42,465 nucleotides of DNA from an uncultured Treponema sp. (lineage in GTDB: Bacteria; Spirochaetota; Spirochaetia; Treponematales; Treponemataceae). Positions 486 through 40,121 of this stretch are shown one piece after another. The notes under the pieces are model-generated. The model saw only the letters and a list, made by a program, of their open reading frames with translations, did no database searches and had not been told where the DNA came from. Position 1 is the stretch's first letter, and every line of letters starts with the position of its first letter. The position numbers were made by a program, and so were the translations under genes. The stretch covers positions 1-42,465 of the forward strand of contig CAMOWQ010000005.1 in assembly GCA_946628495.1 (NCBI GenBank), in the 5' to 3' direction.

Positions 486-645
486 TCGGGTTTTAGGGCT
501 CGCGTGCGCAGCATAGCTGCTTCGAGACTCGCTAAAAACAGTCCACTGGACTGTTTTTGCCTGCGTCGCAGGCCGCTCCCTACCTAGGAGAAGGGGTAGC
601 GGAAAACCGCGAAGTGGGTTGGAGCGAGGGGAAGGCTTTCCCCTT
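486..645 (+). repeat. Composite palindromic repeat, copy A (intergenic)
   Basis: Chain of inverted repeats: AAAAACAGTCC-ACT-GGACTGTTTTT (534-558), GCCTGC-GTC-GCAGGC (559-573), GGGGAA-GGCT-TTCCCC (628-643). Blocks 585-607 and 623-643 recur exactly, reverse-complemented, inside mnmE. Confidence 0.85.
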
Positions 646-16687: not shown

Positions 16688-16799
16688 AATAAAACACAGC
16701 CCGTAAGAGGGCTTTTACAGGTAAAGCTAAAAATTGCATGCGCAATTTTTTTAACGCTTTACGATAGAACACCGGCCGCCAGCGGCCTTACACAGGAGG
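16688..16799 (+). repeat. Three-hairpin intercistronic repeat, copy 1
   Basis: AATAAAACACAGCCCG...GGGCT; AAAAATTGC-ATGC-GCAATTTTT nested in AAAGC/GCTTT; GGCCGC-CA-GCGGCC; ends TTACACAGGAGG. Near-identical to 40001-40121 outside loops. Confidence 0.9.
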
Positions 16800-32921: not shown

Positions 32922-34424
32922 ATGACTCCAAATCAGTATACGCCCGAAGAACCGATAACTTCCATTGCGACGGCACTTGCTCCGGCCGCTTTGGGAATTG
33001 TCCGTGTTTCGGGCAAAAATTGCATTGAACTTGTAAGTAAAGTGTTCAGCCGCCCGAAAGCATTGTTGGAAGCACCGGGAAATACGCTGGTGTATGGATG
33101 GATTTTGGATAAAGGAGGGGAAAGCCTTCCCCTCGCTACAACCGCCGCAACTGCGTCGTTTTCCGCTACCCCTTCTCCTAAGGGCTCCGCCCCTAAAACC
33201 TCGGGTATAGCTGCTTTGGACGAAGTTATGCTTGCAGTTTACCGTGCCCCAAAATCTTTTACAGGCGAAGATATGGTAGAAATTTTCTGTCATGGCGGGC
33301 CTTCTGTAGTTACTGCAATACAAAATCTTATGCTTAAAATTGGATTTCGTCAGGCAAACCGCGGTGAATACACATTCCGCGCTTATATAAACGGAAAAAC
33401 TGACCTTACAAAAGCCGAGGCAATTAAAGAAATTATAGATTCTCATACAGATGTGTCGCGTTCGCATGCAGCGGGCAGACTTTCTGGAAGCCTTTATAAA
33501 GAAATAGATTCAATCAAGAAACTGATAATTGATACTCTTGCCGCAATCGAAGTTGAAATTGAATATCCCGAAGATGAAGAAACAATTGCAGACAGTTTTG
33601 ACCGTGCCGACATAGAAACTGCAATTCGCCGTTTACAAAGCCTTGTTGATTCCTGGAAAAGCGAGAAACTGTATCAGGATGGAGTGCGTGTAGTACTTGC
33701 AGGGCGGACAAATGCGGGTAAATCTTCGCTGTTTAATGCAATCTTAAAAGAAGAACGCGCCATTGTAAGCGATATAGAAGGTACAACCCGCGACTGGCTT
33801 GAAAGCTGGGCGAGCATAAATGGAATTCCTGTCCGCCTTTTTGATACGGCAGGCCTGCGCGAAACAAGCGACGTTATAGAAGCAAAAGGTGTTGAAATAA
33901 GCCGAAACCTTACAAAAGATGCAGATGTTGTTTTGTATCTTGTTGATTCATCGAGTGGTATTAATGATGAAGATAAGGATTTTATAAAAAATTGCAGAGA
34001 ACCGCTTATTGTCGTGTATACAAAGACGGACGTGCAAACTTTGCCGGACGCGGGTACTGCTTGCACTGGCAGTTTTGCAAGCAAAACTGAAGACGGGGGA
34101 ACAGGAGGAGTTTCCTGCCGTATATCTTCTAAAACTGGCGAAGGGATGGCGGAACTTTACGAAAAAATCACTGCAATTATAACGGCGGGAAATACAAGCG
34201 AGCGTGAACAGGCGGGACTTGGTTCTGCAAGGCAGAAGGAAGCGGTTGCAGAGGCTTTGGAATGTACAAAACATGCGATTATTTCTGCCGACGATAATTA
34301 TACTCTGGATGCGGTTGTTCAGGATTTGGAAGATGCTCTTGATGCTTTGGGCGAAGTAACGGGCGATGTTACTCCTGATGATGTGCTTGGAAGTATTTTT
34401 GCAAATTTCTGTGTAGGAAAATAA
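32922..34424 (+). CDS. mnmE: tRNA uridine-5-carboxymethylaminomethyl modification GTPase MnmE
   Basis: IATALAPAALGIVRVSG; KSFTGEDMVEIFCHGG; AGRTNAGKSSLFNAIL; DIEGTTRDWLE; LFDTAGLRET; C-terminal IFANFCVGK. Confidence 0.97.
   Translation: MTPNQYTPEEPITSIATALAPAALGIVRVSGKNCIELVSKVFSRPKALLEAPGNTLVYGWILDKGGESLPLATTAATASFSATPSPKGSAPKTSGIAALDEVMLAVYRAPKSFTGEDMVEIFCHGGPSVVTAIQNLMLKIGFRQANRGEYTFRAYINGKTDLTKAEAIKEIIDSHTDVSRSHAAGRLSGSLYKEIDSIKKLIIDTLAAIEVEIEYPEDEETIADSFDRADIETAIRRLQSLVDSWKSEKLYQDGVRVVLAGRTNAGKSSLFNAILKEERAIVSDIEGTTRDWLESWASINGIPVRLFDTAGLRETSDVIEAKGVEISRNLTKDADVVLYLVDSSSGINDEDKDFIKNCREPLIVVYTKTDVQTLPDAGTACTGSFASKTEDGGTGGVSCRISSKTGEGMAELYEKITAIITAGNTSEREQAGLGSARQKEAVAEALECTKHAIISADDNYTLDAVVQDLEDALDALGEVTGDVTPDDVLGSIFANFCVGK
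33113..33210 (-). repeat. Composite palindromic repeat, copy B, embedded in frame in mnmE
   Basis: Blocks 33117-33137 (21 nt) and 33158-33180 (23 nt) are exact reverse complements of 623-643 and 585-607; the ...CCCCTAAAACCTCGGG end resembles the CGGGTTTTAGGG end of copy A. Confidence 0.88.
34070..34089. repeat. Perfect 9-bp inverted repeat inside mnmE
   Basis: CAGTTTTGC-AA-GCAAAACTG. Confidence 0.85.
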
Positions 34425-40005: not shown

Positions 40006-40121
40006 AACACAGCCCGCCAGCGGGCTTATGATAGTGGGTAAAGCTAAAAATTGCTGGCGCAATTTTTTTAACGCTTTGCTATAAAACACCGGCCGCCTAC
40101 CGTGCGGCCTTACACAGGAGG
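40001..40121 (+). repeat. Three-hairpin intercistronic repeat, copy 2
   Basis: AATAAAACACAGCCCG-CCAG-CGGGCT; AAAAATTGC-TGGC-GCAATTTTT in AAAGC/GCTTT; GGCCGC-CTACCGT-GCGGCC; ends TTACACAGGAGG. Confidence 0.9.

Follow-up and report, generated by a model that had tools for sequence, protein, structure and literature searches.

A palindromic element with three hairpins was found in frame inside the mnmE gene of an uncultured Treponema, and 35 clear copies of it were detected in the source genome. The element is very probably selfish DNA that is tolerated in frame as a translated linker. Elements of this kind were already known; new in this family are the three-hairpin anatomy and the spread across phyla.

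The mnmE insert and its copies in the source genome

The features of the two copies in the window (the whole stretch of 42,465 nt that was analysed) are given in Table 1. The preliminary description had reported a dispersed palindromic repeat inserted in mnmE with the reading frame kept; the repeat was confirmed, and the mnmE ORF stayed open throughout. The limits were partly revised: those of the mnmE copy were refined, and for the intergenic repeat, which had been given as both 585-643 and 486-645, the wider range was the better limit.

Table 1. Positions in the window of mnmE, its inserts and the intergenic copy
Feature	Position	Strand	Basis
mnmE, 500 aa, intact host gene	32922..34424	+	ORF reading; Pfam TrmE_N, MMR_HSR1, MnmE_helical; PDB alignment
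Element copy within mnmE, 84 nt = codons 66-93, GESLPLATTAATASFSATPSPKGSAPKT	33117..33200	+	covariance-model core 33117-33176, E 3.5e-18; end AAAACC at 33200
Hairpin H1, GGGGAA-AGCC-TTCCCC; stem extended by GA (33115-33116) and TC (33133-33134)	33117..33132	+	
Hairpin H2, hypervariable yet paired	33140..33161	+	
Hairpin H3 and tail, CCTAAGGGCTCCGCCCCTAAAACC	33177..33200	+	
SGIAA, 5 additional non-homologous codons from the element end to the conserved LDEV strand	33201..33215	+	orthologue alignment
Second palindrome, different family, CAGTTTTGCAAGCAAAACTG, in frame in the mnmE G4-G5 loop	34070..34089	+	within 34057-34115
Whole intergenic copy (156 nt) with an H3 enlarged by nested palindromes	488..643	-	

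A 21-nt block and a 23-nt block had been described as common to the two copies, and both were recovered. The search found the 21-nt block, GGGGAAAGCCTTCCCCTCGCT, exactly at 33117-33137 (+) and 623-643 (-), with 0 matches expected from shuffles at up to 3 mismatches. The second block was a 31-nt match of 90% identity, within which 23 nt, GTTTTCCGCTACCCCTTCTCCTA, were identical on direct reading. Overall, the two copies shared two matching blocks of 31-32 nt (90-94%). The GC content was 0.61 for the mnmE copy versus 0.37 for the window.

The preliminary description had mentioned neither the second palindrome in the same mnmE nor the spread of the family over phyla. The inverted pattern of the CAGTTTTGCAAGCAAAACTG family was found at 8 genomic loci, versus 1 for a reversed control, and palindromes resembling CAGTTTTGCAAGCAAAACTG were also seen in metH and the GH31 gene. 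The window further contained a 61-nt repeat of 92% identity, GGTAAAGCTAAAAATTGC...GCAATTTTTTTAACGCTTT, at 16720-16780 and 40037-40097, which is unrelated to the hairpin element.

The source genome is a MAG of 2.57 Mb (82% complete, 203 contigs) from a congener of Treponema bryantii. The 35 copies were detected with a covariance model built from the 55-nt element core; one more match (E 0.016), overlapping another copy, was excluded, and copies C8 and C93 lay at contig ends and shared flanks. BLAST gave 18 matches, partial ones included. Absence of further copies would have refuted the preliminary description, and 35 copies across the genome removed that objection.

Fourteen of the 35 copies lay wholly within 12 genes, all in frame, nine in one orientation and five in the other. 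The host genes were mnmE, gltB (two copies), metH (two copies), carB (in the N-terminal half), coaE, murI, folE2, and those of a GH31 glycosidase, an ABC-F protein, an ABC exporter, an MFS transporter and a DUF763 protein. Pfam confirmed most host proteins, and metH was identified by sequence reading without Pfam. The other 21 copies lay between intact ORFs and not in broken genes (one overlapped a 95-aa ORF taken as spurious), and many of them directly followed a stop codon. Genic copies were far rarer than random placement predicts (P about 7e-17, with the expectation taken from the window coding fraction of 0.937, a greedy ORF estimate), consistent with most insertions into genes having been purged. 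Genic copies were recognised through open frames, so that the set is biased towards in-frame cases. Element lengths modulo 3 (remainders 0/1/2) were 6/1/7 for genic versus 6/5/7 for intergenic copies, which hints at frame selection in numbers too small to use.

Structure of the element

The element was about 70-160 bp long and GC-rich, with three hairpins. The consensus order was GGGGRAAGYCTYCCCC (H1), TCGCT, the variable H2, GCTACCCCTTCT, H3, and then AACGCCCC or AAAACCCC. GGGG and CCCC formed the two ends, and part of the purine-rich 5' flank (AGGA in the source genome) extended H1. H3 took the form GCGGGG...CCCCGC or CCTAAGGGG...CCCCTTA, while H2 ranged from a few pairs up to stems of about 30 bp with unrelated sequences, and further repeats were nested inside H2 or H3 loops. 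One element copy from a Fibrobacter MAG had a CGTC-like repeat, TCATCCCCGCGCAGGCGGGGATCTCC, within its H2 region (L137:3055-3182, minus strand).

The GTDB contig scan supplied 99 copies for a covariation analysis of H1 and H2, in which 96.9% of cells paired. Double changes were counted in 164 cells; shuffles gave 53, and slid partners 20 at most. The alignment of these 99 copies was fitted to the structure and thereby favours pairing; a MAFFT alignment of the first 13 copies showed the same pairing pattern.

The kept pairing of stem 2 under complete change of its sequence, together with the many intergenic copies just past a stop codon, would also be compatible with an element retained for a host function of its hairpins (transcription, mRNA stability or chromosome structure), the genic copies being by-products. 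However, the element was present in 50 of 59 sampled congeners at 0-61 copies each, with 0 in several; its position and orientation relative to genes were not fixed; and no Rfam family matched it. A host function was thus considered unlikely.

Filled and empty sites and selection on the insert

MnmE was present in 58 of 58 congeners searched, and in most of them the alignment stopped at residues 61-76 and restarted at 86-99. Pfam domains and MnmE crystal structures aligned to both flanks of the insert, and for T. maritima TrmE (1XZP) the alignment broke off at residue 87 and resumed at 89, with residues 66 and 99 of the query on the two sides. The segment had been called unexpected in MnmE, and orthologues with the same segment but without the nucleotide repeat would have refuted the preliminary description; the crystal structures skipped the insert and most orthologues lacked it, so this objection failed.

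Among 29 aligned MnmE orthologues, with insert families assigned by peptide signature, L025 and L028 carried the element at the same site as the source mnmE. The loop that separates motifs G4 and G5 was a second site: it contained the element in reverse in L022, L023, L025, L028 and L036 and forward in L029. Another palindromic family (PEPVEG) was found at one site or the other in L020, L031 and L040. The mnmE genes of L025 and L033 shared 94% DNA identity over 1437 nt, and L033 had neither insert, which makes its site an empty one. Relative to L033, the first L025 insertion was 174 nt, a multiple of 3.

Of 29 GltB orthologues, most had no insert at either site of the source genome. L259 carried the element at both sites, L251 at site A and, in reverse, L277 at site B. 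The same loops have been filled repeatedly and independently in different species, by the element in one orientation or the other and by different palindromic families.

Further palindromic repeats that read as translated (PEPVEG / LRQAQEPQ and HAELVSAST) were seen in the same MnmE and GltB loops of L020, L031, L040, L254, L255 and L253, T. bryantii XBD1002 included. A dispersed peptide segment near HGFDFANAKSNSKKETSLDVSNPCDN occupied both GltB loops in L249 and one in L252.

Comparison of L025 with L028 gave a dN/dS of 1.13 for the first insert, versus 0.03 for the remaining MnmE (small numbers: 10 synonymous and 31 nonsynonymous changes), and neutral evolution was thus observed for this one insert. 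On codon comparison alone, the value would match the expectation for a tolerated, unconstrained linker and would equally fit an untranslated insert.

The preliminary description had stated that the insert appears to be translated. Intact frames, the absence of stops and the strong constraint on the flanking protein agreed with this, but no peptide evidence was available; translation is inferred, as is continued MnmE function. Strong hairpins and an insert dN/dS near 1 would also be expected if the insert were present in the mRNA and absent from the protein, through RNA removal or through ribosome bypassing, of which the byps elements in yeast mitochondria are an example. Such an insert would need neither to keep the frame nor to avoid stops, yet all 14 genic copies of the source genome do both, and genic copies elsewhere and the 174-nt L025 insertion are likewise frame-keeping and free of stops. 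Loss of the insert before or during translation was considered very improbable, and a translated linker remained the preferred reading.

Distribution, possible mobilisation and comparison with known elements

Across the phylum, 13 of 125 sampled genera had matches. An exact-motif scan of GTDB contigs gave at least 120 stretches. Among the matches listed, record titles named Treponema, Fibrobacter, Chitinispirillia, Prevotellaceae, Bacteroidales, Nitrospirae and others; the Treponema isolates among them included T. bryantii (B25, XBD1002), T. ruminis RU1, JC4 and C6A8, and Rickettsia was not among the matches listed. Whole-genome counts were 3-64 in Fibrobacter MAGs, at least 150 near-identical copies in one Prevotellaceae MAG, and 73 in one Nitrospirae MAG. 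The 23-nt H3 plus tail was identical in Fibrobacterota and Spirochaetota copies. In Fibrobacter genes for an RlmL-like methyltransferase, the element was in frame at one site in four MAGs and absent from others, which indicates that it is native there and not carried on stray contigs; misbinning of contigs may explain the single matches seen in a small number of MAGs from other phyla. Viral contigs rarely contained the 21-nt motif (7 of 2.9 million), so that phages are not obvious carriers.

Two ORFs that joined genes were also observed. In Treponema RGIG8034 (L172:3795-5987, minus strand), the element lay between OppC and OppD, both in one 730-aa ORF, an element-bridged gene fusion. In L186:1202-5593 (minus strand), CarB and DapF formed one 1463-aa ORF, with the element in the linker joining the two CarB halves.

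The source MAG is fragmented, as its 203 contigs and 82% completeness show, and several matches outside Treponema come from MAGs, so an artefact of assembly or binning had to be weighed, as had a pseudogene. The complete isolate genome of T. ruminis RU1 nevertheless contained 44 copies, one of them in frame in gltB. Copies were also present in T. bryantii isolates, inserts occupied the same site in separate genomes, and the low dN/dS of the remaining MnmE does not fit a pseudogene. An artefact can practically be dismissed.

Under the selfish-element reading, a non-autonomous element would spread through gut Treponema and some neighbours, and most surviving copies would be intergenic. A genic copy would survive only with the frame kept, a stop-free frame and a permissive surface loop. 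The stop-free readings would mostly be GESLPLA...SATPS or, reversed, GEGVAE...RGRLSP / SEGETSP, and the translated insert would form a polar, flexible linker, about 25-35 residues long, whose sequence is under little or no selection.

That an enzyme acting in trans actively transposes the element is inferred. The proposal of a mobile unit was supported by the range of copy numbers among congeners and by near-identical expansions, although neither a transposition event nor a mobilising enzyme was observed. No mobilising gene was identified, and no target-site duplication was visible in the element flanks or in L025/L033, whose flanks differ. A larger transposon flanked by elements was not found in the 150-copy Prevotellaceae MAG, where the single inverted pair examined showed simple repeats and no transposase. 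RAYT was judged an unlikely mobiliser: in a search of 59 congeners and 14 selected genomes, Y1_Tnp was absent from most high-copy genomes, and the source genome gave only a 54-aa fragment match.

CTAC (GTAG on the opposite strand) was among the most conserved columns, and conserved GGGGTAGCGG on the complementary strand adjoins the variable hairpin; the element could on these grounds be a disguised RAYT-mobilised GTAG REP. However, the GTAG is internal and not at the element end, and Y1_Tnp was not found in G287 (99% complete, at least 22 copies), G048 (51), G051 (61) or the 150-copy G312, which leaves this explanation scarcely tenable. GTAG REPs, some of them intragenic, have been described in O. 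terrae (PMC3733652). The Treponema element resembles GTAG REPs and REPINs in its dispersed hairpins and conserved GTAG, and differs from GTAG REPs in its greater length, internal GTAG, three hairpins and lack of RAYT in most high-copy genomes. CGTC-tagged REPs are palindromic, intragenic in R. conorii, reported from Spirochaetes and Bacteroidetes, and without a dedicated transposase (PMC3733652). These have one stem of 8-9 bp, a loop of 4-5 nt and a terminal CGTC, none of which the Treponema element shares; no terminal CGTC was found in the aligned copies. Bacterial MITEs (ERIC, NEMIS, RUP) are shorter than 200 bp and have no coding capacity of their own, and ORF fusions have been reported for them (PMC2229807). 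In contrast, the Treponema element has no terminal inverted repeats of 15-30 bp, only GGGG...CCCC, and most MITEs are A+T-rich, unlike the mnmE copy.

The closest likeness was to the palindromic elements of Rickettsia and Wolbachia, which are likewise short, genic and intergenic, and in frame in conserved genes. The Rickettsia elements (RPEs; Ogata et al. 2000, 2002) are reviewed in PMC2229807, and the original papers are also cited in PMC3733652. The parallel with Rickettsia elements drawn in the preliminary description was strengthened by the many copies, genic and intergenic, in both orientations and several frames, in core genes, with empty sites in relatives. RPEs are palindromes of 105-146 bp that lack a transposase of their own and occur both between genes and, with the frame kept, inside conserved ones; a gmk enzyme bearing one is cited as translated and still active (PMC2229807). 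The Treponema element differs in having three separate hairpins instead of one long stem-loop, a middle stem that is hypervariable yet paired, and other host phyla, several of which contain the family. By analogy, it appears to work like RPEs and to be a separate family, without a direct sequence comparison with RPEs. A description of the element was not found in the literature searched, in which a sequence text search gave unrelated papers only.

Most in-frame palindromic elements known so far come from Rickettsia and Wolbachia, and other organisms have supplied only scattered cases. The present family places them in central metabolic enzymes of Treponema, a genus of dozens of species, some of which are cultured and free-living. 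Since empty and filled sites occur in near relatives, the question of neutral inserts versus new protein parts becomes testable by proteomics and comparative genomics. A wider reading is possible but doubtful at present: an undescribed class of mobile DNA with an unknown, non-RAYT mechanism may cross phyla in fibre-degrading gut communities, renew its middle hairpin as a unit (pairing kept, stem sequence wholly changed), and recurrently supply core enzymes with in-frame linkers and even gene fusions such as OppC-OppD. With the family also present in MAGs of Fibrobacterota, Bacteroidota and Nitrospirota, one may ask by what route such a small hairpin element moves between phyla.
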